From positions 1 through 58,087 of IMG/VR virus record IMGVR_UViG_3300008629_000005: a stretch of DNA of 58,087 nt; one strand, given 5' to 3'. The notes under the pieces are model-generated. The model did no database searches, was not told the DNA's origin, and was given only the letters and a program-made list of their open reading frames with translations. Shown here piece after piece: positions 622 to 52,617 of the stretch. The stretch comes from a virus. Numbering within the stretch: the stretch's first letter is position 1; each line of letters opens with the position of its first letter. The position numbers and the translations under genes were made by a program.

Positions 622-2250
622 ATGACTATGGTGAAGATAGAAACACTTGAGGAAGCCCGCAAATTCACATTCCGTAGAGACCTCGATGAGGTAAAAAATT
701 CTCACGGGTCTCCGTCACGCGGTGAGGTTCAGGAATTTAACTTAGGTTCTATAAGTTTTATTAATCCCCACGATGCACCCGTTCTGCCGGGCAAGTATAA
801 AGAGACAGAAACTTATAAGATAATGGAGTATGTTGTCTCACAACAACCTCCGATACGAATGGTTCCATGGTCAGAAGTTAAAAAATTAATAGATGCTGGG
901 AAGTTGATGGGATATCAACAGTTGCATCATAATTCATTACAATATCATAGATACCTTCATTTAGGATATTCTCAAGAACCTAGACCCGACCACCCTGTAA
1001 AAGGTGGTTCTATGGATTTTAAAAATACAGATGATGAGTATCAATGGTTATCAACTGTTAGTGACCACCCTGATTGTAATAAGTTAAATATAGACGAAGA
1101 AAATGCATTACAAGCACAATATTATCACGCTGCAAAAGCACACTGGTTGATTAATAATATACAAAAAGAAGGTCTCTGGCAATGCATACAAGGACATACT
1201 GCAGCTGGTGGTAAATACCTTGGGGCCGATGGAGAAGAGCACGATATTATACCTAAGATAAGCATTCATCCCGGCTCGATTCGTTCAAAGGTATTTGAAA
1301 CAATAGACATACCTGAACTTCCTATTTTAGTTACAGATTATACAAATTTATTTCCTAACATTGACTCAATGACTTTAGATGATATCTTAGATTATTGGAA
1401 AGACACAGTAAAGGGAGACTCACTCACAGCTATATACACTAGAGACGGTAAGATTGAATGGTCTCCTAGTAATGTTGGTGGGTTAAATTTTAGAGATTAT
1501 GTTTATGATTTTAATAAAAAAGTAACTAAATTATGTAAAAAGAAACCAGTTAATATCTATCTTGGCTATGATTCTTCTCATAGTGATATATTTAAAATTG
1601 CAGAGAATTCTATACACGATTCAATAGATAAATGTAGAAGCGGTGGCGATGGCCAAGAGTTTTTTAATGATTACAAAGTAGAAGTTAAGAAACTTGACAT
1701 AAGCCAAATTCCCGAATATAATAGGGACTACGCAAATCAATCGACAGAGTTTACTTACAGTAGATTCTTAATTCCATATTTAGAAAACTATGAAGGATTT
1801 AGTTTCTTTATAGACGATGACTACATATGGAAATATTCACCTATGTCTTTATTTTATTTCTTAGACCCTGATCATGCTATTGCATGTGTTCAATATGATT
1901 TTAAAGAGCATGACGAGACAAAAATGGGTGGAGAAAAGAATGTTTCATATCCTAAAAAATTGTGGTCTAGTATGATGATATTTAATAATGGTCATGAAGA
2001 TTGTAGGAAATTAACACCCGAAGTAGTTAATACTGCAAGTGGTCAGTTTTTACACCAGTTTGAATGGACTAATCAAATTAGTAAGATACCACATGATAAA
2101 ATTGCAACCGAAGGATATGAAAAAACCATGTTAAATAGTCACCATGCAGTTCACTATACAAGAGGTGGCCCATGGATAAAAGGCATGGATTGTGAACACA
2201 TAAATATGTTAGAAGTATATGAAACATATAAAAGAATGTTAAAGGTATAA
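622..2250 (+). CDS. Glycosyltransferase-like protein (GT8-type C-terminal half)
   Basis: 542 residues. The C-terminal half looks like a retaining GT-A glycosyltransferase: a strand NIYLGYDSS near residue 315, a long helix-rich stretch, then FFIDDDYIW with a DDD triad near 398-400 in the place of the metal-binding DxD, and a late HAVHYTRGGPW segment like the GT8 end motif. The N-terminal 240 residues are of unknown fold. The start at 622 fits the late box five bases upstream. It stands between a structural protein and a small gene 10 bp downstream. The substrate could be a virion protein, cell-surface glycan or modified DNA; nothing in the sequence decides. Enzyme class is inferred from motifs only. 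Confidence 0.55.
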   Translation: MTMVKIETLEEARKFTFRRDLDEVKNSHGSPSRGEVQEFNLGSISFINPHDAPVLPGKYKETETYKIMEYVVSQQPPIRMVPWSEVKKLIDAGKLMGYQQLHHNSLQYHRYLHLGYSQEPRPDHPVKGGSMDFKNTDDEYQWLSTVSDHPDCNKLNIDEENALQAQYYHAAKAHWLINNIQKEGLWQCIQGHTAAGGKYLGADGEEHDIIPKISIHPGSIRSKVFETIDIPELPILVTDYTNLFPNIDSMTLDDILDYWKDTVKGDSLTAIYTRDGKIEWSPSNVGGLNFRDYVYDFNKKVTKLCKKKPVNIYLGYDSSHSDIFKIAENSIHDSIDKCRSGGDGQEFFNDYKVEVKKLDISQIPEYNRDYANQSTEFTYSRFLIPYLENYEGFSFFIDDDYIWKYSPMSLFYFLDPDHAIACVQYDFKEHDETKMGGEKNVSYPKKLWSSMMIFNNGHEDCRKLTPEVVNTASGQFLHQFEWTNQISKIPHDKIATEGYEKTMLNSHHAVHYTRGGPWIKGMDCEHINMLEVYETYKRMLKV

Positions 2251-2260
2251 TGGAGTTAAT

Positions 2261-2839
2261 ATGAATGCATTAGTTTACTGCGAAAACGGAAATCTTTTTA
2301 TAAGAAAACCAAATGGATTAGAGTGGAGACATGAAAGTGTTGACGCTCCTGACTTAGGATTTGACTATCAAGTTATAATATATGATGATATTGAATGCAA
2401 AGTTGAAGAATGGGAAGACGGTAAAGAGCTTGACGAACAAGCAAAACTTCCTTTATCTGAAAATGAAAAGGACGCAATCGAAGCTTATATTGAAAATTCT
2501 GAACCACCAAGTGGGGTTAGTTTAAATCAACAATATGCTGGTCGAGTTGCAGAAGGGGTTAGAAGAAACACTTATCAACAAGTCGAACAGTATGGTTTTG
2601 ATGATATAGTAGAAGTTTCTATTGCTGCTCGTGAAGGGTCAGCGCATCCACACAGATCAAATGCCCGAAGGGTTTTGGAATATACAGACGCATTGGCTTG
2701 TGTTGCTGAAGAAGTATTCAGAGAGATATCGATAACAAGAGAAGATACTCTTAAACCTTTAGAGGAATACTTAATGCAGCTGCCTCCACCTTCTCATTTG
2801 AGAAGCAGTGGTGGGTTACAACCAAATGACGCTGGATAA
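2261..2839 (+). CDS. Unknown protein, 192 aa
   Basis: Not recognised. It is acidic in the first half and helical in the second (residues about 120-165, with an AHPHRSNARRVLEYTDALACVAEEVF stretch broken by His/Arg), and ends with a proline-rich tail. GGAG five bases before the ATG supports the start. It lies 10 bp after the glycosyltransferase-like gene and overlaps the following oxygenase by 14 bp, so the three are probably co-transcribed. No signal peptide or membrane segment. Confidence 0.7.
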   Translation: MNALVYCENGNLFIRKPNGLEWRHESVDAPDLGFDYQVIIYDDIECKVEEWEDGKELDEQAKLPLSENEKDAIEAYIENSEPPSGVSLNQQYAGRVAEGVRRNTYQQVEQYGFDDIVEVSIAAREGSAHPHRSNARRVLEYTDALACVAEEVFREISITREDTLKPLEEYLMQLPPPSHLRSSGGLQPNDAG

Positions 2840-3533
2840 TATCAATGTCCATTTTATAGACGAGCCTTTCTATATTCAGGACAGTTTTCCATTAGAGAAC
2901 AATGTTTATGTTCTAGATAATTATCTAGAAACTTCATTGTGGAAAAATGTAGATGATGAATTACACAGAAGAACTGCTTGGTCTAAAAATAATCAAGTAA
3001 ACGGTAACATTCCTAATAGAGGTGGTTTACCAAATCACCAATTATGGGGTTGTTCTTATTTTGCTGGGATAGACTTCACTCCAGCTGGAGACAATCCAAA
3101 TAAACCTTTAATGAGGTGGTTAGATAGAAAAATCCGAACTGATTTTGGTTTTGATTGGGTTAGGTTTCAATATATGGGTGGCAATTCTCAAACACATGGA
3201 CAACATGGAACATGTCATTCAGATGCTTCTCAAGAAGATGAATGGAGCCTTTCTTTTTTATACTACTCAAATAGTTTTTGGAACCCAAATTTTGGTGGAA
3301 GATTAAGATTTTATAAAGATACTATTCCTATGGGGATTTTAAAAGAAATGGATCGCCTTGAAATTGGTTCTGTTGATTTTGTTCCAAATAGATTATTAAT
3401 GTTTGACGGAAGAATACCACACGGTGCAGAGGCACCTCATAAAAAAGCTAAATACTTAGACAGACGGTCAATCGTATTACGAGGAGATGAGATTGCAGTA
3501 TTAGACGAGAAAAGAAGATATGCCAACGATTGA
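2826..3533 (+). CDS. 2-oxoglutarate/Fe(II)-dependent oxygenase
   Basis: 235 residues from the ATG at 2826, which overlaps the end of the previous gene by 14 bp. The double-stranded beta-helix signature is visible: HSD (in GTCHSDAS) as first His and Asp ligands, a GGRLRFYKD strand, LLMFDGRIPHGAEAP carrying the distal His, and a final Arg-rich strand (RRSIVL) for 2-oxoglutarate. This resembles prolyl-4-hydroxylase-like phage enzymes. Substrate unknown; such proteins are numerous in marine T4-like phages. It overlaps the next gene by 14 bp. Confidence 0.75.
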   Translation: MTLDNINVHFIDEPFYIQDSFPLENNVYVLDNYLETSLWKNVDDELHRRTAWSKNNQVNGNIPNRGGLPNHQLWGCSYFAGIDFTPAGDNPNKPLMRWLDRKIRTDFGFDWVRFQYMGGNSQTHGQHGTCHSDASQEDEWSLSFLYYSNSFWNPNFGGRLRFYKDTIPMGILKEMDRLEIGSVDFVPNRLLMFDGRIPHGAEAPHKKAKYLDRRSIVLRGDEIAVLDEKRRYAND

Positions 3534-4458
3534 ATTTAGAACTTATGACGAAGAGTCTTATGCAAGCTTTAGACCAATAGCAGCTAGAGACTATCAGCCA
3601 GAATGGTGGAAGAAGATGAAAGTCAGAATTGACCATAGAGGTAGATTGACTCAAACTATTAGGTCTTGTCCAGCAATGCAAGACTGGTTAACAATGGGTT
3701 ATTACATTGTTTGCACTAAGGATATTCCAGTAAGAAACGGAGTAGATTGGAATTGGCCAGACGGTAGTCAGGAAATGCAAGTCGAAGAAGGTATAACAGA
3801 AGTATCACAATCACACCCTTCGGCACAACTTGCAGATACTATTCAATATATTGATGATTCACCAGTTAAAGATGCATTTAAAATATCTTCTCATTGGAAT
3901 ATGACAACTCCGCCGGGCTATTCTGTTTTGTTTATAGACCCGTTTTTATTTCAGAATAAATACTTTGCAGTATGGCAAGGGGTTATCGATACCGATAAAT
4001 TTAATGTTGGCGTAGATAACGGACAAATCATATTCTATCCTAGGGTAGATTACTCGTTCATAATTCCAACTGGAACTCCTATACTACAGGTAGTACCTTT
4101 TAAAAGAGAAGAATGGGCATCGACATACTTCTATGGGGAGTCCGAGACTTGGTTTAATGAACATGCAATAGCAGAGAATTCGATGCAAAAATGGCAAAGA
4201 GATTTAAAGTTAGTGGACGAAGAAACTGGACTTCCGAACTCTCGATTAAATATTGGTGGATATAGACAGGCTAAGATATGGAATCCAAAAAGTAAATTCT
4301 TTCAGCATATGAAAGAAGGAGAATCACCTCCACCTGAATGTCCTATGCATGAAAAGGACGAAAATCAGTTAGAGATGGATTTCGTTGAGAAGCAAAGAAG
4401 TCAAACAGATTTAAACTGGGACGGTGCGGAGTCTAACGAAAATATAGACAGAGATTGA
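3520..4458 (+). CDS. Conserved marine-phage protein, DUF6065-like
   Basis: 312 residues with no catalytic motif I can name. The pattern of a WW-containing N-terminus, a segment TPPGYSVLFIDPF near residue 130 and a beta-rich middle (IIFYPRVDYSFIIPTGTPILQVVPF) recalls the DUF6065 family found beside phage oxygenases. The C-terminus is charged and contains PPPECPMH, a possible Cys/His metal site. It lies between two oxygenase genes with overlapping ends, suggesting a joint role. Family assignment is from memory of the pattern and is uncertain. Confidence 0.5.
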   Translation: MPTIEFRTYDEESYASFRPIAARDYQPEWWKKMKVRIDHRGRLTQTIRSCPAMQDWLTMGYYIVCTKDIPVRNGVDWNWPDGSQEMQVEEGITEVSQSHPSAQLADTIQYIDDSPVKDAFKISSHWNMTTPPGYSVLFIDPFLFQNKYFAVWQGVIDTDKFNVGVDNGQIIFYPRVDYSFIIPTGTPILQVVPFKREEWASTYFYGESETWFNEHAIAENSMQKWQRDLKLVDEETGLPNSRLNIGGYRQAKIWNPKSKFFQHMKEGESPPPECPMHEKDENQLEMDFVEKQRSQTDLNWDGAESNENIDRD

Positions 4459-4460
4459 TT

Positions 4461-5141
4461 ATGGCAGTTAGATTATTATTTCCTACCTTTTTGTTTGAGT
4501 ATAACTTACTTGAAGAAGGTTTAGTGACGGAGACATATCTGCAACAACTGAAAGCAGATATGGATAGCATGAGAGCCAAAGACCCCGTAGGACGGAGAAT
4601 ATCTAACGCATATACGGGCTGGCAATCTAATGACGGGGTTGAGCGGAGACCAATATGGAATAAAATGTTGAGAGTCATGAAAGATAAATTGAACCAAGAT
4701 ATTGTTCGATTTCATGGTATTGATTTAAGTAAAGTTCAGGTAACTATTGGTAATGTTTGGGCTAATATTAATGACCACCTTGCGTGGAATAAACCACATT
4801 TGCATAACGGTTGTTGGTATAGTGGTGCATTATATATTCATGCTGAAGGTGACGAAGGAAATTTTGTTGCAATTAATACAGACCCAAAAGTTGTTTCAGA
4901 CTTCCCACATAACATGAGACAGCGTGAATCACATGAAGTTCGACCAATATCAGGAACCCTTCTTATGTTCCCTAGTGCTATGATGCATATGGTAGAACCT
5001 AATCCAACCAATAAGGATAGATATAGTGTTGCATTTAATACAGATACCCGATATTTGACTGGAGGAAGGTCAGAACCTTTAGAAATTGATACAGCTTGGG
5101 ACAGGTTTGAAATAGGAGAAGACGGCGAACTGACGAAGTGA
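4461..5141 (+). CDS. Putative 2OG-Fe(II) oxygenase, cyanophage type
   Basis: 226 residues from the ATG at 4461, two bases after the previous stop. It matches the small oxygenase family common in marine T4-like phages: an N-terminal LLFPTFLFEYNL strand, WANINDHLAWNKPHLHNGCWYSG with the HxH-type ligand region broken here for length, then GTLLMFPSAMMHMVEPN containing the distal His, and RYSVAFNT with the 2OG Arg. Cytoplasmic enzyme; substrate unknown. It is third in a run of short, overlapping accessory genes. Confidence 0.75.
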   Translation: MAVRLLFPTFLFEYNLLEEGLVTETYLQQLKADMDSMRAKDPVGRRISNAYTGWQSNDGVERRPIWNKMLRVMKDKLNQDIVRFHGIDLSKVQVTIGNVWANINDHLAWNKPHLHNGCWYSGALYIHAEGDEGNFVAINTDPKVVSDFPHNMRQRESHEVRPISGTLLMFPSAMMHMVEPNPTNKDRYSVAFNTDTRYLTGGRSEPLEIDTAWDRFEIGEDGELTK

Positions 5142-41947: not shown

Positions 41948-42097
41948 ATGAAATATTTAAAGGACTTTTTAGAATGGCACGAAAGACTTTGTTGGAAGTT
42001 TATCGATAGATTCAACCTTACAGATTACCAAGCACTTTGGATAGCATGGGCTGAAGGTGTAATTCTTGTTTTACTTGTTTGGTGGATTTGTGGGTGA
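41948..42097 (+). CDS. Small membrane protein, 49 aa
   Basis: TTAGGAG seven bases before ATG. Sequence is aromatic and basic at first (WHERLCWKFIDRF) and ends with one membrane segment (AEGVILVLLVWWICG). Its TGA overlaps the GTG start of the next gene (GTGA), suggesting coupled translation with curlin-like 2. No family recognised. Confidence 0.65.
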   Translation: MKYLKDFLEWHERLCWKFIDRFNLTDYQALWIAWAEGVILVLLVWWICG

Positions 42098-42954
42098 AAC
42101 AAACTGAGGGAAAATTGGACTGGTCAGCAAAATTATTCATAGGGTGTTTTACACTCATGGTGTTATTTTCAGCAATTAAAGCATTTGCTGATGATGATAA
42201 CCGTATCAATATTAATCAGGTCACAGCGGGTGGAGATAATCTCGACCTAACTATCGACCAAGAAGGATTCAACAACAATATCTTTTTCTCACTTGGAGAC
42301 GGAGACGATTACGATATAGAAATCTTACAAAAAGGAAACAATAATGAAATTGGATACGCAAATGATTCCCCCAGCTGGGGCTCAGGTTATGGTTGGGGTG
42401 GCGATATTGACGGAGAAAGACAATCACTTAAACTCTACCAAAACTGCACGAAAAATTCGTCCTGCGGTAAAAACGACATTCAGTTCCACATAGCATATGG
42501 AGATGACAATACACTTTGGTGGGCCCAAGGATATGAATTCTCAAACCGTAACGACACTACATGGTCAATAGATAATAATGACGGCGGTAATCATACTGTC
42601 ACCATAGATATCCATGGTAGTGATAATTCAATAAAAGGACAGCAAAGGAATTGTGCAAACAATAATTGTGACGGACATTCAGCAAGAATCTATCTCTATG
42701 GAGATGACAATGATGTGTTTGGAAAACAGAAAGGAGACAGTTCAAAGACATTAAACTTAACAGTTCATAATGACTCTAATATTGTTGACTATCTTCAAGA
42801 CGGTAATGCTCAACATACTGCAAATATTACTTTGAATGGTACTTATGGAACTACTTTAGATTTAACGCAACACGCAGGCTCAGCTCAGTCATATACTTTG
42901 TCTCAAGCTTGTTATACAGTCGGCGGTTGCACAATTACAGTAACACAAGATTAA
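42094..42954 (+). CDS. Curlin-like secreted repeat protein 2
   Basis: 286 residues from the GTG at 42094 that overlaps the previous stop; an in-frame TTG at 42079 is less likely. N-terminal membrane/signal segment (LFIGCFTLMVLFSAI) ending AFA|DD, then Asn/Asp/Gly-rich repeats such as INQVTAGGDNLDLTIDQ, ILQKGNNNEIGYA, YGDDNTLWW, HGSDNSIKGQQ and YGDDNDVFGKQ. Curlin-like Q-G--N spacing is clearer here than in protein 1, with four Cys pairs or so. Two curlin-type subunits recall CsgA/CsgB (major fibre and nucleator). Confidence 0.78.
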   Translation: MKQTEGKLDWSAKLFIGCFTLMVLFSAIKAFADDDNRININQVTAGGDNLDLTIDQEGFNNNIFFSLGDGDDYDIEILQKGNNNEIGYANDSPSWGSGYGWGGDIDGERQSLKLYQNCTKNSSCGKNDIQFHIAYGDDNTLWWAQGYEFSNRNDTTWSIDNNDGGNHTVTIDIHGSDNSIKGQQRNCANNNCDGHSARIYLYGDDNDVFGKQKGDSSKTLNLTVHNDSNIVDYLQDGNAQHTANITLNGTYGTTLDLTQHAGSAQSYTLSQACYTVGGCTITVTQD

Positions 42955-42957
42955 ATT

Positions 42958-43065
42958 ATGTGGGATAAAATAATAAATTATAAATTTCATATCAAATGGG
43001 TTTTTATAGTATTAGGAACCTTATTGGTTGGATTAGCACTGTCGTTTTATCGACTGGTCTCCTAA
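42958..43065 (+). CDS. Tiny membrane protein, 35 aa
   Basis: Starts three bases after the curlin-like 2 stop. Basic N-terminus (YKFHIKW) and one membrane segment (VFIVLGTLLVGLALSFY). TAATG overlap with the next gene supports that it is translated. Too short to classify. Confidence 0.5.
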   Translation: MWDKIINYKFHIKWVFIVLGTLLVGLALSFYRLVS

Positions 43066-43229
43066 TGAAACAATGGTTGTTTAATAAGATGGTTCCGCAC
43101 GCCATCAGGTTCAGGGAATGGTCTAAAGGAAAAACTTGGATACAGATTCCCTTATGGATTTTTATATTGTGGCTTTTAGGAGTAGCTAATCCTTACTGGT
43201 GTGTATATCCAGTTTGTTGGATAACATAA
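43065..43229 (+). CDS. Small membrane protein, 54 aa
   Basis: ATG at 43065 overlaps the preceding stop; its own stop overlaps the cyclase start (TAATG again). Basic N-terminal half (NKMVPHAIRFREWSKGK) and one hydrophobic segment rich in Trp with two Cys (IPLWIFILWLLGVANPYWC). May be a partner of the cyclase or exporter. Confidence 0.55.
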   Translation: MKQWLFNKMVPHAIRFREWSKGKTWIQIPLWIFILWLLGVANPYWCVYPVCWIT

Positions 43230-45106
43230 TGTACTCGTGGAAGACAGTATTAATAACTGTCTCGTTATTATTCGGACTTAAGGTATGGAATCCATATCTT
43301 ATTGAGAATGTTACATGGTCTTGGTTTGACTTCCTACACCAATCAAAAGAAATAGAACAAACCGATAACATAGTTCTAGTAGACATAGACGAGAAGTCAC
43401 TACAGAAGTATGGTCAATACCCATGGCCGAGAAATATCTATGCAGATATAATGTTGGAATCACATTATACCAACACTCATGTATTTACCCAGTTGTTTAA
43501 AAACCCTGATAGGTTTTCAGGGGACGAAGCTTTTGCAGAAGGATTAGTTAATCGGCTATCGATTTTATCAGCTGCACCCACAACTCAATTAGATACTGGG
43601 TCTGCACCATTTGTTAAGACTTCGGTGTTCGGTGACGGCGAGATAAAAGACCATATTTGGAGCTTCTCTGGCATTGCTTCACCAGTTGATATCCTGAAAC
43701 AGAATTCGTATGGTTCAGGAGTGACAGTCACAACACCTAGTATTTCAGGAACACCAAACTTTGACGGGACAATCCGTTCAGCACCATTAATAGTATCTGC
43801 AAATGATGTTGTATATCCTTCGGTTGCACTAGAGGTTCTTCGTGCATTTGGTGACCATAAGAATTATCAAACACGAGTCACGGAAGAAGCTGGAATCGAG
43901 TGGATTCGAATGGGTAGGAGCCCTCCCATAGAAACAACCTCAACTGCAGATGTTCAAATTGGATACTGGTTCGATTTTGAGAGAATATCTGCAATGGATT
44001 TACCCAACTCAGACCTTGAAGGTAAGATACTGATTTGGGGATTAACTGCAGAGGGACTTAATAATCCAGTTTCAACCCCAGTGGGTGTAATGTATCCTCA
44101 TAAAGTTCAAGCCTCACTTCTCCAAACCGTTTTGCAAGATGTTCGAATACAACAATCCTACTATCTTGAATTCTTATCTCTCGCTCTTCTGCTGACAGTC
44201 CTTCTAGGAATATTGGTAATGGTCTACACACTTCCCACAGCCGTTGCGGGGATAGCTTCTCTAGTCTTCGTTGGATTTCAGGTGGGTGGGTCTCTCTATT
44301 GGTGGTCTTCATCTCTCGTTCTTTTCGATACTTTCTACTCATCGATTGCCTCCATTATAGTTTTCGGACATGCTTCCTTCAACAAATACTATACAACTTA
44401 TCAACTCAAAGAACTTATTAAGAAGCAGTTTCAAAAATATTTATCTCCTGACATGGTTGAAGAACTCCAAAAAAACCCTGAATTATTGAAACTTGGTGGA
44501 GATAGAAGAGAACTTTCATTCCTCTTCGCAGACATAGTTGGGTTCACTCCAATATCAGAAGCATACATGAAGAATGACGACCCCGAAGGATTAGTGGAAC
44601 TAATTAATAGATTCCTAGACGGTATGTCTAAAATTGTCCTAGCAAATGGTGGAACCATCGACAAATATATGGGTGACTGCTTGATGGCATTTTGGGGAGC
44701 TCCTCTTGATTGCCCTGACCATGCACAAATGGCTTTGAAATCTGCAATAGAAATAGAACTATTAACAGAACAAATGAATATAGATATAGAAAGGGAAGGA
44801 TTAGATTTACCACCAGTAGTCATTGGCACGGGAATTAATACAGGCCCATGCATTGTCGGAAACATGGGAAGTGAAGCACGATTCGATTATTCAGTTGTCG
44901 GTGACGCTGTTAACCTTGCAGCTAGACTCGAAGTCCAAACAAGGCAATATGACACTCCAATTATAATGTCAGAGTTCACAAAGAAACAAGTTGATTGTGA
45001 ATGGCAGTATCTTGACGAAATAAATGTTAAAGGAAAGGAAATTCCAGTTAAGATATATGCACCTTTAATTGATAGGAAATTAAGAAAATTACAAAAACCC
45101 TCTTGA
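43229..45106 (+). CDS. CHASE2-domain class III adenylate cyclase
   Basis: 625 residues, complete. N-terminal membrane helix, then a periplasmic CHASE2 sensor domain (about 25-305; NIVLVDIDEKSLQKYGQYPWPR is typical), three membrane helices (about 310-395) and a C-terminal cyclase domain. Catalytic residues intact: metal Asp435 (FADIVGFT) and Asp483 (KYMGDC), adenine-selective Lys479 and Asp559 (VVGDAVNLAARLE), transition-state Asn562 and Arg566. Predicted to make cAMP in the host cytoplasm in response to an envelope signal. Unusual in a phage. Starts within the previous stop. Confidence 0.93.
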   Translation: MYSWKTVLITVSLLFGLKVWNPYLIENVTWSWFDFLHQSKEIEQTDNIVLVDIDEKSLQKYGQYPWPRNIYADIMLESHYTNTHVFTQLFKNPDRFSGDEAFAEGLVNRLSILSAAPTTQLDTGSAPFVKTSVFGDGEIKDHIWSFSGIASPVDILKQNSYGSGVTVTTPSISGTPNFDGTIRSAPLIVSANDVVYPSVALEVLRAFGDHKNYQTRVTEEAGIEWIRMGRSPPIETTSTADVQIGYWFDFERISAMDLPNSDLEGKILIWGLTAEGLNNPVSTPVGVMYPHKVQASLLQTVLQDVRIQQSYYLEFLSLALLLTVLLGILVMVYTLPTAVAGIASLVFVGFQVGGSLYWWSSSLVLFDTFYSSIASIIVFGHASFNKYYTTYQLKELIKKQFQKYLSPDMVEELQKNPELLKLGGDRRELSFLFADIVGFTPISEAYMKNDDPEGLVELINRFLDGMSKIVLANGGTIDKYMGDCLMAFWGAPLDCPDHAQMALKSAIEIELLTEQMNIDIEREGLDLPPVVIGTGINTGPCIVGNMGSEARFDYSVVGDAVNLAARLEVQTRQYDTPIIMSEFTKKQVDCEWQYLDEINVKGKEIPVKIYAPLIDRKLRKLQKPS

Positions 45107-45130
45107 AATTTTTGAAAAAACCCATATAAT
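45103..45130 (+). promoter_or_regulatory. Sigma-70-type promoter of hsp20
   Basis: TTGAAA, 16-bp spacer, TATAAT. The -35 box overlaps the cyclase stop. Gives an early route to hsp20 ahead of the late box at 45145. Confidence 0.6.
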
Positions 45131-45144
45131 AGGTATATAAGTAT

Positions 45145-45152
45145 TATAAATA
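45145..45152 (+). promoter_or_regulatory. Late promoter TATAAATA of hsp20
   Basis: Perfect consensus; predicted +1 about 45158. The leader contains a GTAAT/ATTAC hairpin (45160-45179) like those of gp18 and gp22, then AAAGGAG before ATG 45214. Confidence 0.72.
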
Positions 45153-45213
45153 CTTTAGTAATTGCTCAATAGAGGATTACATATATTAACTTGCTTAATT
45201 AAAGGAGAAAAAT

Positions 45214-45624
45214 ATGACGCATTTAGATATATTTGGTCAATTCAGACCGTTCGCAATAGGATTTGATAGATATTTCGAAGACCTCGAAAGAATGTCTACA
45301 ATCTCACAATCAAACTATCCACCATACAATGTGGTAAAAGTAGACGATGAAAATTTCACCGTTGAACTTGCTGTTGCTGGATTCGATAAGAAGGAAATTT
45401 CTGTTACTAAAGAGAAAAACATTCTTGTTATCGAGGGTAGTTCAGAAGATTCTGAGAAGGACTTTGTCCATAAAGGATTAGCTTCTAGAGCATTCAACCG
45501 TAGATTTACACTTGCAGACGATGTAGAAATCGCCAGTGCAGTGTATAAAAACGGTATATTGAGTGTCAACTTAGAGAGAGTCATTCCCGAAGAAGACAAA
45601 CCAGTTTCTATCAAAATTTCATAG
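45214..45624 (+). CDS. hsp20: Small heat-shock protein (Hsp20)
   Basis: 136 residues. Alpha-crystallin domain: YNVVKVDDENFTVELAVAGF near residue 38, KNILVIEGSSED, ASRAFNRRFTLADDVEIASA and the signature YKNGILSVNLER near 109, ending with a KPVSIKI tail. ATP-independent chaperone, common in marine T4-like phages and probably useful in capsid or scaffold folding. Dual early and late promoters and a strong AAAGGAG site suggest high expression. Confidence 0.94.
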   Translation: MTHLDIFGQFRPFAIGFDRYFEDLERMSTISQSNYPPYNVVKVDDENFTVELAVAGFDKKEISVTKEKNILVIEGSSEDSEKDFVHKGLASRAFNRRFTLADDVEIASAVYKNGILSVNLERVIPEEDKPVSIKIS

Positions 45625-45638
45625 AAACCCACTATACA

Positions 45639-45671
45639 GATACCACTGTTATGTGATATAATGGTGGTATC
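45639..45671 (+). promoter_or_regulatory. Inverted repeat flanking a -10 box, possible operator
   Basis: GATACCAC (45639-45646) and GTGGTATC (45664-45671) are perfect inverted arms around TATAAT at 45657-45662. The loop is 17 nt. May be an operator or RNA hairpin regulating the gene at 45691 and ahpC-like gene. Confidence 0.45.
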
Positions 45672-45690
45672 ATTTTATTATGGAGTAATT

Positions 45691-45885
45691 ATGAAAAAAG
45701 AAGAGGGCATACAAGAGTGTGCAAAAAATGACAGAGTCGCAATAGAAGCAGACCTAAACAAATATCTTAATGATTTGACAGATAGAGAAATGATTAAGTT
45801 ATGTAATACTATAGCAAGTCAAGGTGGGACTAGAACACTCTCCACTTACGATTATAGTTGGAATCCTTTAAGGGAGATGTTATGA
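45691..45885 (+). CDS. Unknown small protein, 64 aa
   Basis: The ATG at 45691 with TGGAG upstream is preferred to an in-frame ATG at 45661, which lies inside the promoter/operator. Charged helical protein (DRVAIEADLNKYLNDLTDREM) with a YDYSWNPLREML end. Its TGA overlaps the peroxiredoxin start (ATGA), so the two are co-translated. No family recognised. Confidence 0.65.
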   Translation: MKKEEGIQECAKNDRVAIEADLNKYLNDLTDREMIKLCNTIASQGGTRTLSTYDYSWNPLREML

Positions 45886-46391
45886 AAACAGTAGGTGAAC
45901 AATTCCCCGACTTCTCATTAGAGGGGATTAATAAGTTTAATGAATTTGTGACAGCAGACAATGACTGGCTTCAAGGTTGGTCAGTGGTTTACTTTTATCC
46001 AAAAGACTTTACTTTTATCTGTCCAACAGAGATTGCTGGATTTGATGCATTGGTAGACGCGGGTGTATCAGTTATCGGTATCAGTGGTGATAACGAGTTT
46101 TGTAAATTAGCATGGAAACAAGATAATGAGTTGATAGGTAATATTCAACATACGCTTGCAGCTGACACTGGACTTAGATTATCAAGCGACCTTGGTGTGG
46201 TAGATATAGAAAATGGTGTATGCTATAGAGCAACATTTATTATCGACCCTGATGGAGTAATCCAACATGCATCAAGCAATGCATTAGACACTGGTAGAAA
46301 CCCACAAGAAGTTCTAAGAACTGTAAGGGCACTACAAGCTGGTGGACTAACTGGTTGTGCATGGAACGAAGGCGAGGACTTCGTTGGATAG
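45882..46391 (+). CDS. Peroxiredoxin (AhpC/typical 2-Cys type)
   Basis: 169 residues. Peroxidatic Cys47 in YPKDFTFICPTEIAGFD with the TxxC pattern, and a C-terminal Cys159 (LTGCAWNEGEDF) in the place of the resolving Cys. RATFIIDPDGVIQHAS matches the strand after the active site. Reduces hydrogen peroxide or organic peroxides; in a phage it may protect against oxidative burst during infection. No AhpF-like partner is visible, so host thioredoxin or glutathione would be the reductant. Confidence 0.92.
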   Translation: MKTVGEQFPDFSLEGINKFNEFVTADNDWLQGWSVVYFYPKDFTFICPTEIAGFDALVDAGVSVIGISGDNEFCKLAWKQDNELIGNIQHTLAADTGLRLSSDLGVVDIENGVCYRATFIIDPDGVIQHASSNALDTGRNPQEVLRTVRALQAGGLTGCAWNEGEDFVG

Positions 46392-46450: not shown

Positions 46451-47692
46451 ATGAACGAATATTTTAGATATAGATTATCAGACCTTGAAGAAGGTGCTTC
46501 AACAAAGAAGTTTAATTATATAACTTTCTTTGCTGGCGGAGGCGGTTCTTCATGTGCATACAAACTCTTAGGTGGAGATTGTAAATACATGAATGAATTT
46601 CAACAACTTCATGTTGATACCTACCTTTTAAATTTCCCAAACACAGTTCACGAATGTAAAGACATTAAAAAAGTTACTGGTAAAGATATCATGGAACTTA
46701 GTGGACTAGGAGTTGGTGAAATAGATATTCTAGATGCAAGTCCACCTTGTCCGCCATTTTCAATGGCTGGATCAAAACGAGAAGGTTGGAACAAAGAGAA
46801 GATTGCATATGGAATGAAGCAAGAAAACATTGAAGATTTAACTTGGGAAGTAATTAGAATTACTGGTGAACTCCAACCCAAGATTGTTATTTGTGAAAAT
46901 GTAAAAGGTCTTACAATGGACTATGCAAGAGACCATTTGAATAGAATGATTACAGACTTTGAAGCACAAGGATATTCTGCAGTTTATAAAGTTATGAATG
47001 CAGCCCAACATGGAGTTCCACAAAAAAGAGAAAGAACATTTATACTTGCAGTTCGTAATGATGTATTAGATAAAATTGGAATGCCATGGATGGTTTTAGG
47101 AAGTGTATTTCCTGAACCTTCTCAAAAAGAATGGACTGTAAGAGATGCAATAGAAGACTTACAAGATGACGAACAAAACATAACCGATGCAAAATACCTA
47201 GAAGAATCTTTGAGACATTCTTCAAAGGCTCATTGGGTATTTGGATTTGATACTCACCCTGACTATCCCAACTCGGGCCCATGCTTAGGTATGAGGGGCA
47301 TAAATAATATGGAAAGGGTTGTTAGTATTGGAGACGATATCGTTGGCCCGTGGTTCAAAGAACAAATTGCAAGGGGTATCATTGACCCCGAAGATGAAAA
47401 ACATTCTTATTACATGTCAAGGATTGTACCTTGGACTCAAGCTGCACATTCATTAACTGAACAAGGGTGTCAACCAAAGTTTATGGGTGGTAATCATTTT
47501 CACCCCAGTGGAGAAAGGATATATACTCCAAAGGAATTACAAAGGATTATGACTCTTCCCGATGACTATAGGAGTACGGGAGATTATAACGACAAGGGTG
47601 CAAGAATAGGATTAATGGTCGCACCACTTTGTCTTAAGGCATTAGTTGAAAGTGTCTTAGAAAATATTTTGGAGAAGTATAATGTCAATTAG
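46451..47692 (+). CDS. DNA cytosine-C5 methyltransferase
   Basis: 413 residues with intact motifs: FAGGGGSSCAYK (I, near 27), DILDASPPCPPFSMAG (IV, catalytic Cys100), VICENVKG (VI, ENV near 149), GVPQKRERTFILAV (VIII, QxRxR), and the C-terminal RLMTLPDDY-like LQRIMTLPDDYR with a GLMVAP region (IX-X). Makes 5-methylcytosine in DNA. No restriction enzyme gene adjoins. The next gene, 11 bp overlapping, encodes a TET/JBP-like dioxygenase, suggesting further oxidation of the methyl group. Confidence 0.93.
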   Translation: MNEYFRYRLSDLEEGASTKKFNYITFFAGGGGSSCAYKLLGGDCKYMNEFQQLHVDTYLLNFPNTVHECKDIKKVTGKDIMELSGLGVGEIDILDASPPCPPFSMAGSKREGWNKEKIAYGMKQENIEDLTWEVIRITGELQPKIVICENVKGLTMDYARDHLNRMITDFEAQGYSAVYKVMNAAQHGVPQKRERTFILAVRNDVLDKIGMPWMVLGSVFPEPSQKEWTVRDAIEDLQDDEQNITDAKYLEESLRHSSKAHWVFGFDTHPDYPNSGPCLGMRGINNMERVVSIGDDIVGPWFKEQIARGIIDPEDEKHSYYMSRIVPWTQAAHSLTEQGCQPKFMGGNHFHPSGERIYTPKELQRIMTLPDDYRSTGDYNDKGARIGLMVAPLCLKALVESVLENILEKYNVN

Positions 47693-48698
47693 AACACACA
47701 CACCAACAGTTGACCATGGTTTTAAAGAAACTATGGAGAAGTATAACGGTCAGTGGTTAGACGGAAGTGAAGTCACAGACCTAGTATCTACCGTGGGAAC
47801 AGACCACGAGTTAACCAAGATTTATAAACCAGTATCTACACTTGGAGAGGAACCACCTCTACTTGCATGTATTGTTAAAGGCGTATACGAAGGTGAGAAG
47901 TTAGAAGAATTAAGGTCAACAGTTCAATCTATTGAAGATGTATCTACACTTCGTGCAAATGCAGCTGGCCCTATTGATAAAGATGAAATGGCAAAGAAAG
48001 GTATGATAGAGGGAGTTCATTATAAATTAAGAACTGCAAACTCATACTATCCACTAAAGAAAAATGGTGAGTTCAATCGAATTGCAGAAGCAAACCCTAT
48101 TCATTCTATTTTTATGGGACATAAGAGAGGAAGATTTACGGGAATGATTGGTTTAAGTGGTTGGGCAAAACTAAAAAGAAACCAAGAGAAGTGGGAAAGC
48201 ATGCAAGAGATAGCAGTTCTAAATGAACAAGCATTAAAAATAGGGGCCCCCGAAGTTTGGAAAAAACAAAGAGATTTTTGTGATGAGTGTGTTGAAGAAA
48301 AATACTGGTTGCAAGGAGCTCCGTTCACTTCTATATCTGCAAACAAATATTCATATGTTGAAGGTGCTGGAAAAATGTCTGCACATATTGACGGTGACGA
48401 TTTAGATTTTGGAATGACAACAATGTGTGTATTTCGTTGTGGAGATTTTGAAGGTGCATATCTATCATTCCCAAGATATGGAATTGGTATCGATGCAGAT
48501 GATGGTGATGTTATTATTGCAGATTCAAATGAATTGCATGGTGTGACTCAAATTAAAGGTGAAGGTGTCAGACATACATGTGTTGCATATTGTGGAAGTG
48601 ATGTTGCAACAAAAGGTGTAAGAGGTAAAACAGAGAATCCTATCGGACACCATCATAGAGACAAACATGGTAGCTTAGATAGTTTCTTAGGAGACTAA
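47682..48698 (+). CDS. TET/JBP-like 2OG-Fe(II) dioxygenase
   Basis: 338 residues. The C-terminal half has the TET/JBP-type core: ANKYSYVEGAGKMSAHIDGD with His235 and Asp237, a GAYLSFPRYGIGIDADDGDV strand pair, ADSNELHGVTQ with distal His286, and GVRHTCVAYC with Arg297 for 2-oxoglutarate. The N-terminal 200 residues are helical and family-specific. Adjacent to a C5-methyltransferase with overlapping ends, so the likely substrate is phage 5mC, giving 5-hydroxymethylcytosine. Enzyme class is well supported; the DNA substrate is inferred from context. Confidence 0.8.
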   Translation: MSIRTHTPTVDHGFKETMEKYNGQWLDGSEVTDLVSTVGTDHELTKIYKPVSTLGEEPPLLACIVKGVYEGEKLEELRSTVQSIEDVSTLRANAAGPIDKDEMAKKGMIEGVHYKLRTANSYYPLKKNGEFNRIAEANPIHSIFMGHKRGRFTGMIGLSGWAKLKRNQEKWESMQEIAVLNEQALKIGAPEVWKKQRDFCDECVEEKYWLQGAPFTSISANKYSYVEGAGKMSAHIDGDDLDFGMTTMCVFRCGDFEGAYLSFPRYGIGIDADDGDVIIADSNELHGVTQIKGEGVRHTCVAYCGSDVATKGVRGKTENPIGHHHRDKHGSLDSFLGD

Positions 48699-49012
48699 TG
48701 TCAAAATTATTTAAAAATGTATTTCAAGTGGTAGAAAATCCACATGAGAAAGATGCTGGCATAGAAATAGTCAGTGGAGAATTTGAAGGGTTAGTGTATC
48801 AGTATGGTAATGTGGAGTTTGTTGAAGGTAAACCACATTTAAATTTTCAACGAACAATTCGTAGACTTCCTAACGATGAAAATTTGACAATGGACGAACT
48901 ACTAAATAATGATACATTAGAAAAGCTTATGGGAGATATCCTAGTGGAACTCCTAGAGGAACAAGTCGAGAGGGACAAAAATGAACAGAGAAGTATTGAA
49001 GGAACAGATTAA
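48698..49012 (+). CDS. Unknown conserved-looking small protein
   Basis: 104 residues. Beta-rich first half (GIEIVSGEFEGLVYQYGNVEF) and acidic helical second half with LTMDELLNNDTLEKLMGDIL. One-base overlap with the TET-like gene and 32-bp overlap with the lysozyme gene. No motif known to me. Context does not separate a role in DNA modification from lysis. Confidence 0.7.
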   Translation: MSKLFKNVFQVVENPHEKDAGIEIVSGEFEGLVYQYGNVEFVEGKPHLNFQRTIRRLPNDENLTMDELLNNDTLEKLMGDILVELLEEQVERDKNEQRSIEGTD

Positions 49013-49666: not shown

Positions 49667-52171
49667 ATGGATTTTTATACAAATGTTTGTCGCACACGAG
49701 ATAAAATTTTAGTCAAGGGATACAAAGGAAAGAAACAATTAAAACTTTCCGTTGCATATCGTCCCAACCATTACATACCCTCAAAAAAAGGAGAAACAGC
49801 ATTCCGTGCATTAGACGGAAGACCCCTTGAGGCAGTTAATCTTAACTCCATGGGTGGTGCAAGAAAGTTTCGAGAAAGATATAATGCCGTTGACGGATTT
49901 GAAATCCACGGATACGACAAATATATCTACACCTATATTGCAGATAAGTTTCAAGGTGATATAGAATTCAATCCAAAATTAATTAAGACAGCTTCACTCG
50001 ATATTGAGTGTGAGTGTGAAGACGGATTTCCTGAGCCTATGATTGCAGGCGAGAAGGTTAATGCAATCACTATGAAACCATTTGGTAAACCTCCAGTAGT
50101 ATTCGGTCTTGGTGAATGGAATCATGGTAAGAATTATGATTATCGTCCTTGCACAAATGAAGCAGACCTTTTAATGCAGTTTATCAAATACTGGAGAAAG
50201 GAATCATTCGATATTATCACTGGTTGGAATGTAAACTCTTTTGATATAACTTATCTTTGTAATCGTATTGATAAAATTATTGGAGAAGACGAACATAAGA
50301 AATTATCTCCATGGGGAATGTCAGATGTTAGAGAATTCGTTTCACAAGGATATCAAAAACAACAAGTATTCAATCTTTATGGGATTAATGTTCTTGATTA
50401 TCTCGAGCTCTATAGGAAACATACTTTTGTAAATCAAGAATCCTATTCATTAAACCATATTTCACACATTGAACTTGGTAAAGGTAAGTTAGATTATTCA
50501 GAGTATGGAAACTTACACACACTTTATCGACAAGATTATGAAAAGTTTTTAGAGTATAATGTTGTTGACGCTGTATTAGTTGAAGAACTAGAAGAGAAAC
50601 TTGGACTGATTGAGTTGGTTCAAACAATGTCTTATAATGCAAAGTGTAATTATAATGATACATTTGGTATGGTTAAGTATTGGGAAACCATAATCTATAA
50701 CTTCTTAAAAGAACAGAATATCCAAACACCACCACAAAAAATGTCTCGTGAGAAGACAAGTCGTATCATAGGTGCATATGTTAAAGAACCATTAGTTGGT
50801 GGACATGATTGGGTTGTGAGTTTTGATTTAAATTCTCTATACCCACATATCATTATGCAACATAATATCTCACCCGAGAAAATGGTTAAGTCTGCAAAGG
50901 AAGAGGTTTCTATTAAGTCTTTACTCAATAGAGAAGTTGACCTTAGTCATTTAAAGAAAGAGAATAATACTGTTTGTCCTAACGGTGCAAAGTTTACACG
51001 AAACCGACAAGGTTTTCTTCCCGAACTCATGGAGAAGTTCTATGACGAGAGAAAGGCTTGGAAGAGGAAAATGATTGACTATCAAATTGAATATCAGAGT
51101 GCAGATAAACCAAGACGAAAAGAACTCGATACTTTAATTAAGAGAGCTAATAACAATCAAATGGTTCGAAAGATTGCACTCAATTCAGCATACGGAGCTC
51201 TTGCAAATCAATACTTTGCTTTCTTTAGTGTCGACCTTGCAGAAGCAATCACCACTAGCGGGCAACTAATCATTCAGTGGGCTGAGAAAACCATAAACGA
51301 ATTCTTAAACAAAACTCTTGAAACTGATAATGAAGATTATGTAATTGCAATGGATACTGATTCACTTTATATTACTATGGATAAATTAGTTCAAAGAGTT
51401 CTTCCCGAAGAAACAAACAAGGGTAAGATTGTAGACTTCTTAAACAGCTCCGAAGGTTTGATTGAGAAAGTTCTTGCTGAAGGGTTTGACGAACTTGCAG
51501 AATATACAAATGCATATCAAAACAAAATGGAAATGGGCAGAGAGATTATTGCAGACCGTGGTATTTGGACTGCAAAGAAACGATATATTCTTAATGTGCA
51601 TGATAACGAAGGGGTCAGATTAAAAACTCCTAAACTTAAAATGATGGGTATTGAAACTGCAAAGAGTTCAACACCACAATGGGTTAGAGGAAAACTCACA
51701 GAGGCTTTTCAAGTTGTTATGAATGGTGAAGAAACAGACTTGTGGGAGTTTGTTGAGAATGCCCGAAAAGAGTTTAGGAATTTACCACCCGAGGAAGTTG
51801 CATTTCCTAGAGGGTGTAAAGGATTAGTTCAGTATGCAGACCCAACACATATCTATTCAAAAGGAACTCCGATTCATGTAAGAGGTTCCTTGTTATATAA
51901 CCACCACCTTAAGAAGAAGAATATCGATAGAAGATATGAAATGGTTAAGAATGGTGAGAAGATACATTTCAGTTATTTGTCAACCCCTAATCCTATTAAT
52001 GAGAATGTCATTGCATTCCTTAATGTATTACCTAGAGAATTAGATTTACATAGATTTATAGATTACGATATGCAATTTGATAAAGCATTCGTAGACCCTT
52101 TGAAGGTTGTTATTAGTTTAATTGGCTGGAATGTTGAACCAGTTGCTAGTCTTGACTCATTTTTTGGATAA
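49667..52171 (+). CDS. gp43: DNA polymerase gp43 (family B)
   Basis: 834 residues (T4: 898). Proofreading exonuclease: Exo I SLDIECECEDG near 111, Exo II FDIITGWNVNSFDI near 184, Exo III YNVVDAVLVEEL near 299. Polymerase: motif A SFDLNSLYPHII near 384, motif B RKIALNSAYGALANQYF near 500, motif C AMDTDSLYI near 562. The C-terminus ends with a hydrophobic DSFFG that may be the clamp-binding peptide. Replicative polymerase with gp45. Uninterrupted, no intein or intron. Confidence 0.97.
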   Translation: MDFYTNVCRTRDKILVKGYKGKKQLKLSVAYRPNHYIPSKKGETAFRALDGRPLEAVNLNSMGGARKFRERYNAVDGFEIHGYDKYIYTYIADKFQGDIEFNPKLIKTASLDIECECEDGFPEPMIAGEKVNAITMKPFGKPPVVFGLGEWNHGKNYDYRPCTNEADLLMQFIKYWRKESFDIITGWNVNSFDITYLCNRIDKIIGEDEHKKLSPWGMSDVREFVSQGYQKQQVFNLYGINVLDYLELYRKHTFVNQESYSLNHISHIELGKGKLDYSEYGNLHTLYRQDYEKFLEYNVVDAVLVEELEEKLGLIELVQTMSYNAKCNYNDTFGMVKYWETIIYNFLKEQNIQTPPQKMSREKTSRIIGAYVKEPLVGGHDWVVSFDLNSLYPHIIMQHNISPEKMVKSAKEEVSIKSLLNREVDLSHLKKENNTVCPNGAKFTRNRQGFLPELMEKFYDERKAWKRKMIDYQIEYQSADKPRRKELDTLIKRANNNQMVRKIALNSAYGALANQYFAFFSVDLAEAITTSGQLIIQWAEKTINEFLNKTLETDNEDYVIAMDTDSLYITMDKLVQRVLPEETNKGKIVDFLNSSEGLIEKVLAEGFDELAEYTNAYQNKMEMGREIIADRGIWTAKKRYILNVHDNEGVRLKTPKLKMMGIETAKSSTPQWVRGKLTEAFQVVMNGEETDLWEFVENARKEFRNLPPEEVAFPRGCKGLVQYADPTHIYSKGTPIHVRGSLLYNHHLKKKNIDRRYEMVKNGEKIHFSYLSTPNPINENVIAFLNVLPRELDLHRFIDYDMQFDKAFVDPLKVVISLIGWNVEPVASLDSFFG

Positions 52172-52188
52172 GTTTACCTATATAGAGT

Positions 52189-52617
52189 ATGGCATACAGT
52201 AAAAAGGTTGTAGATAGATTCAACAATGTCCTCAACAACCCCGATAAACACGGTGTAGGTAGATTCGACCCCAAAGACCCAAATGTTGCAACAGGAATGA
52301 CTGGAGCACCAGCTTGTGGCGATGTCATGAAACTTGATTTAAAAATTAATCCCGAAACAGATGTTATAGAAGATGTTAAGTTTAAAACTTATGGTTGTGG
52401 TAGTGCAATCGCTTCCTCTTCATTATTTGTTGATATGTTAATGGGATTAACAATAGAACAAGCAAAACTTATCGAAGATAAGGACATTGCAGAAAAACTA
52501 GAGCTCCCACCAATTAAACTTCACTGTTCAGTTCTTGCAGAAGATTCAATTTCACAAGCAGTAAAGGACTGGGAATCAAAAATCGAACATAGAAACCACA
52601 ATAAAAGTAACCTATAA
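52189..52617 (+). CDS. iscU: IscU/NifU-like Fe-S cluster scaffold
   Basis: 142 residues. All three scaffold Cys are present: Cys43 (GAPACGDVMKL), Cys70 (KTYGCGSAIASSS) and Cys113 (KLHCSVLAED), with LPPIK at the HscA-binding LPPVK site. IscU builds Fe-S clusters in bacteria. No IscS, HscA or Fdx is visible, so it would work with host partners, perhaps to support phage or host Fe-S enzymes. Between the polymerase and a nuclease gene. Confidence 0.92.
   Translation: MAYSKKVVDRFNNVLNNPDKHGVGRFDPKDPNVATGMTGAPACGDVMKLDLKINPETDVIEDVKFKTYGCGSAIASSSLFVDMLMGLTIEQAKLIEDKDIAEKLELPPIKLHCSVLAEDSISQAVKDWESKIEHRNHNKSNL

Follow-up and report, generated by a model that had tools for sequence, protein, structure and literature searches.

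A cytosine C5-methyltransferase coupled to a TET/JBP dioxygenase in marine T4-like phages: a predicted post-replicative route to 5-hydroxymethylcytosine

Results

The window analysed here is a whole viral record of 58,087 bases, a contig that represents a genome fragment. The phage is T4-like, with genes for a T4-type neck protein, a tail sheath stabiliser and a terminase, its relatives are marine, and the window and pelagimyophage HTVC008M have a curlin repeat protein and an adenylate cyclase-like ORF in common. At the locus under study (Table 1), a methyltransferase gene and a dioxygenase gene overlap by 11 bp, as an initial annotation had reported, and a GGAG just 5' of the TET start codon would suit translational coupling of the two. 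The hairpin upstream of the pair is retained in three related loci (L005, L007 and L008) and could be terminator- or attenuator-like. A host-like gene cluster (42079-46391) encodes the curlin repeat protein, the adenylate cyclase-like ORF, a small heat shock protein-like ORF and an AhpC-type peroxiredoxin, with a different peroxiredoxin-like gene at the place of the latter in many relatives. A protein with a NifU-like N-terminal domain (iron-sulphur scaffold; 52189-52617) is encoded 3' of the DNA polymerase-like gene, and two more 2OG-Fe(II) oxygenases of other families lie near the neck genes (2808-5141).

Table 1. Features of the window discussed in the text (window coordinates)
Feature	Coordinates	Strand	Remarks
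542-aa protein with glycosyltransferase-like C-terminal domain	622..2250	+	
Hairpin, then T run ending at methylase start codon	46407..46446	+	17 pairs, -17.8 kcal/mol, z -5.15
C5-cytosine DNA methyltransferase, 413 aa	46451..47692	+	sister group of CmoX carboxymethyltransferases; Leu388 at CmoX Arg350 position
TET/JBP-family Fe(II)/2-oxoglutarate dioxygenase, 338 aa	47682..48698	+	ligands H235, D237, H286; 2OG Arg297
Exchangeable slot between TET and 104-aa gene	48698..48698	+	empty in window; kinase-like or glycosyltransferases in relatives
104-aa protein, phrog_3998, first gene past slot	48698..49012	+	
DNA polymerase-like ORF, locus landmark	49667..52171	+	

Scans of IMG/VR gave about 85 distinct related loci. 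TET is the next gene after the methylase in 81 of the 83 methylase loci on these viral contigs, and the remaining two contigs stop 0 and 2 bases past the methylase, so that coupling holds in 81/81 testable loci. The overlap of the two genes is usual, and a small gene stands between them in L084 and L091. The cultured Melnitz-group phages of OM43 likewise carry the pair beside the DNA polymerase gene: in Methylophilales phage Melnitz, the genes again overlap, the two proteins are 56% and 47% identical to those of the window, an annotated polB lies directly 5' of the pair, and the TET is annotated only as a hypothetical protein. In the part of the Melnitz-group paper considered here, the methylase is mentioned and no mention of TET was found. 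Neither gene of the pair was found in the cultured pelagimyophages Mosig and HTVC008M.

This coupling bears on the possibility that the dioxygenase is JBP-like and modifies thymine or a different target, with the methylase serving as an independent anti-restriction orphan. TET/JBP homologues do occur without any C5-methylase in phages HTVC112P, Cr30 and Terij, but two independent genes would not be predicted to stay together in every testable locus, and we regard this alternative as very unlikely. In Microbacterium phage Terij (L200:642-2155), ParB-like, TET/JBP-like and kinase-like genes stand in a row with no C5-methylase, and this row may act on thymine. Masking of the phage DNA from host nucleases, which the initial annotation had also proposed, is a weaker suggestion than the modification pathway. 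A survey recorded a restriction-modification system in only 1 of >100 SAR11 genomes (PMC7029224); SAR11 may not be the host of the window phage.

The identification of the dioxygenase draws on profile, active-site and fold evidence. The search against the TET_JBP profile for which the initial annotation had called gave a match above the curated cut-off (PF12851 Tet_JBP; 44.4 bits versus 34.9 bits, E 1e-11), and the TET/JBP-type ligands that it had noted, here assigned as HxD...H together with the 2OG Arg (Table 1), are present in every relative that covers these positions. The competing outcome, a match to a protein-hydroxylase profile only, was thereby decided in favour of TET, and profile and predicted fold together rule out a protein-hydroxylase identity. 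Confidence in the predicted model is moderate (pLDDT 72; <50 around HxD). When it was used as the Foldseek query, the first 26 of 26 matches were TET enzymes, followed by FTO, with other AlkB-type enzymes and prolyl hydroxylases below FTO at far weaker scores. Similarly, VIA-align of the predicted fold gave a Z of 19.7 to TET2 (272 residues, rmsd 3.4) and of 13.7 to FTO. Searches of PDB sequences with phmmer and a profile found no TET, the sequence being too distant. The base-contacting His of TET2 and NgTET1, which we take to correspond to position 305, is not conserved, this position being mostly D, G or S in the family. On this profile and model evidence the ORF is a TET/JBP dioxygenase, with oxidation of 5-methylpyrimidines in DNA as its predicted activity.

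The methylase matches PF00145 (E 1e-49) and TIGR00675 (144.7 bits; cut-off 100.65), and its membership of the C5-methylases is borne out by the PF00145 profile together with motifs I, IV, VI and VIII. The motifs FAGGGG, SPPC, ENV and QxRER are intact, as the initial annotation had held, and invariant in 65-66 relatives. The canonical motif X Asn (HhaI N304) is missing, with Leu388 in its place in 66/66 relatives, while Asn is present in PaeU8; this Asn is usual and not strictly defining for C5-methylases, as CmoX has Arg there. Because motif X carries Leu and not the usual Asn, we infer the use of SAM from the family.

Among solved structures, the methylase is most closely related to CmoX of Synechococcus phage S-B43 (PDB 8YF3, E 4e-67), a cytosine carboxymethyltransferase with a GC motif that uses Cx-SAM and binds the carboxyl group through Arg350 (PMC12783734). 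In a small tree, TET-linked and CmoA-linked methylases are sister groups (support 91/100), and SPPC is common to both. Together with the relation to CmoX, this would be compatible with a first enzyme that transfers a carboxymethyl group from Cx-SAM, leaving the dioxygenase to act on carboxymethyl or another group. However, the position of R350 is Leu in 66/66 TET-linked methylases, and CmoA was absent from all pair-bearing records searched, yet found in 3/3 CmoX-type phages searched. These two observations rule out membership of CmoX, leave a carboxymethyl first step with a very remote chance of being right, and make methyl transfer from SAM the likely first step. The CmoX/CmoA/CmoY system of S-B43 is otherwise alike in its related cytosine C5-transferase and in the logic of installing a handle and then decorating it (PMC12783734). 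CmoX phages belong to the Kyanoviridae, as does Melnitz, and in S-CRM01 the system is also close to hsp20 and a polymerase gene. It differs in the carboxymethyl group from Cx-SAM made available with CmoA, where the pair described here has Leu for the key Arg, no CmoA and TET as the next gene.

Genomes with the pair are poorer in GpC (observed/expected 0.62-0.91) than five pair-free relatives (0.82-1.01; p 0.006, from only eight versus five genomes of different hosts), with no difference in CpG between the two sets. In the phage TET clusters of Burke et al. 2021, a GpC-specific methylase reportedly lies next to TET. CmoX phages have GpC ratios of 0.62-0.66, and a GC motif is recorded for CmoX carboxymethylation (PMC12783734). 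By its dinucleotide signature, the site of the TET-linked methylase is possibly GpC.

T4 makes 5hmC at the nucleotide level, on dCMP, using the dCMP hydroxymethylase gp42, which belongs to the thymidylate-synthase family. No member of this family (PF00303) was found in 15 records, including two complete phage genomes, one of them Melnitz, and the window record, which is a fragment; as a control, members were found in 9/14 control genomes. This result speaks against a T4-type pre-replicative route in the records searched and makes the post-replicative conversion of 5mC to 5hmC the best reading.

The genes that follow TET vary between relatives. Among fully read loci, the slot 3' of TET holds only a kinase-like P-loop gene in 43, only glycosyltransferases in 9 and both in none; it holds neither in 15, of which 14 belong to the clade of the window. 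A Fisher test of this exclusivity (p 3e-5) counts related contigs as independent, and the at least five changes of slot state on the TET tree are the better guide. For example, the TET of L005 is 95% identical to that of the window, yet L005 has the kinase-like gene.

The kinase-like gene (L005:3277-3864, L001:7557-8090 and L055:5251-5787) encodes a protein whose predicted model has a nucleotide-kinase fold. Distant homologues precede terminase genes in actinophages, some of them without TET (Saguaro, Zenteno07), which rules out a strict link of this gene to TET; a homologue also precedes the terminase in Caulobacter phage Cr30, and in Terij one lies directly 3' of the TET/JBP-like gene. To our knowledge, 5hmC phosphorylated in DNA is not among the known cytosine modifications. 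Given the actinophage homologues, we offer a 5hmC kinase as a hypothesis only, prompted by the 5hmdU DNA kinase already described (PMC7653180).

Other genes recur in the post-TET cluster. Melnitz differs from the window in that a 427-aa gene and a kinase-like gene follow TET; the 427-aa protein (L001:6269-7552), directly 3' of TET, has no Pfam match, and its relatives lie near the pair in several contigs. A family of mostly 330-420 aa is encoded directly 3' of TET in L052 (7289-8560) and 26 other loci, usually before the kinase-like gene, and its representative had no Pfam match. A spermine/spermidine-synthase-like gene follows an epimerase and TAGT in L060 (5120-5872), with a gene from the same cluster after TET in L062, and L095 has a cytidylyltransferase.

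Two relatives encode a T4-type DNA alpha-glucosyltransferase (AGT; PF11440, ~250 bits) two genes after TET (L033:9025-10191 and L040:5754-6956). Both are 40% identical to annotated phage enzymes, and TAGT (PF20691) accompanies the alpha-glucosyltransferase in L033. Enzymes of these types act on 5hmC in DNA, with TAGT adding a second glucose in T2/T6 (PMC13216743), and 5hmC made by TET is accordingly the economical interpretation throughout the family. The core of the initial annotation, 5mC formed in DNA and then oxidised by TET in place of the T4 nucleotide route, is thus well supported by profiles, fold and coupling, by the lack of a dCMP hydroxymethylase homologue and by these alpha-glucosyltransferases close after TET.

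The same enzymes bear on where oxidation ends. Eukaryotic TETs oxidise past 5hmC to 5fC and 5caC, and the sequence here sets no particular end point, so the dioxygenase could in principle remove methylation of the host or of the phage itself by going beyond 5hmC. Against this stand the constant company of its own methylase and the alpha-glucosyltransferases of L033 and L040, which need 5hmC as the end point, and we consider such over-oxidation very unlikely. One paper states that phage TETs have not been described to oxidise further than 5hmdC (PMC11404850).

In the window and in a near-identical 106-kb contig, AGT, TAGT and the kinase-like gene are absent, and the part of the remainder of the 106-kb contig scanned by Pfam contained no other DNA glycosyltransferase. 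With the slot empty in this clade, the product may be bare 5hmC. The initial annotation had proposed that the distant gene at 622 could add sugar to it. Its glycosyltransferase-like character was upheld, the C-terminal part matching proteins annotated as glycosyltransferases, but the link to the pair was not: the gene, which adjoins a 2OG oxygenase and neck genes, is present in 5/12 records with the pair (including one that is near-identical to the window), no relative was found in the complete Melnitz genome, and a relative occurs in Mosig, a phage without the pair. We therefore rejected it as part of the pathway. A homologue (36% over 176 aa) lies a few genes after TET in L081. With the slot genes absent and the 622 gene unlinked, bare 5hmC is the simplest expectation for the window, and its completion by an unlinked enzyme is possible. 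The 106-kb contig G001 has a pair of HAD phosphatase and cytidylyltransferase (CTP_transf_3) genes (L197:12257-13533) that possibly makes an activated sugar.

Discussion

At these loci we observed the identities of the two genes, conservation of their active sites, the fold, a strict coupling, exchange of the gene that follows, and the absence of alternative routes from the records searched. As judged from sequences and a predicted model, a two-step post-replicative pathway, in which C5 methylation in DNA is followed by TET oxidation to 5hmC and, in relatives, by decoration through a third gene, is the probable function of the locus. The methyltransferase would place a methyl group from SAM on cytosine C5 in duplex phage DNA, probably at short sites and possibly at GpC, and TET would oxidise the resulting 5mC to 5hmC in DNA. 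In relatives, the hydroxymethyl group is the probable substrate of the exchangeable third gene product, which would transfer sugar to it or perhaps, in the kinase-like case, phosphorylate it. The window's clade has no such gene at the locus, and the 5hmC in its DNA is probably left bare or completed by an unlinked enzyme. The enzyme activities, site specificity, product and benefit to the phage are those that the gene families and their arrangement would suggest. That the slot offers swappable decorations on TET-made 5hmC, with T-even-type glucosylation (AGT, TAGT, GT8) in some phages and phosphorylation of 5hmC in DNA by the kinase-like protein in others, strikes us as possible but rather doubtful.

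Phage clusters with a methylase and TET have been published before, and the pair in the window is thus a further case of a known type of system. As described in PMC12730594 and PMC11404850, the clusters of Burke et al. 2021 are alike in having a C5-methylase and a TET/JBP enzyme that make 5hmC, with glycosyltransferases near in relatives. They differ from the present loci, which occur in T4-like marine phages near the DNA polymerase gene and have a third gene that alternates between kinase-like and glycosyltransferase and is missing in the clade of the window. Compared to 5hmC glucosylation in T-even phages (gp42 and alpha-glucosyltransferase in T4, TAGT in T2/T6), the same product base is expected and the glucosyltransferase families are those that follow TET in some relatives. 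T-even phages differ in that 5hmC is formed on dCMP and not by oxidation in DNA; here no dCMP hydroxymethylase was found and the window is without such a glucosyltransferase.

Four features make the present case valuable: the two genes are strictly coupled, a third gene is exchanged between relatives, T-even glucosyltransferases are joined to TET, and a cultured phage, Melnitz, carries the pair and makes the chemistry directly testable. The locus also connects the methylases that accompany TET with the carboxymethyltransferases of the CmoX type, and a single active-site residue, Leu or Arg, distinguishes the two branches. If the proposed pathway is correct, a widespread group of marine T4-like phages would obtain its 5hmC through TET oxidation in place of the dCMP hydroxymethylase used by T4, and in some members T-even glucosyltransferases would be joined to TET-based 5hmC.
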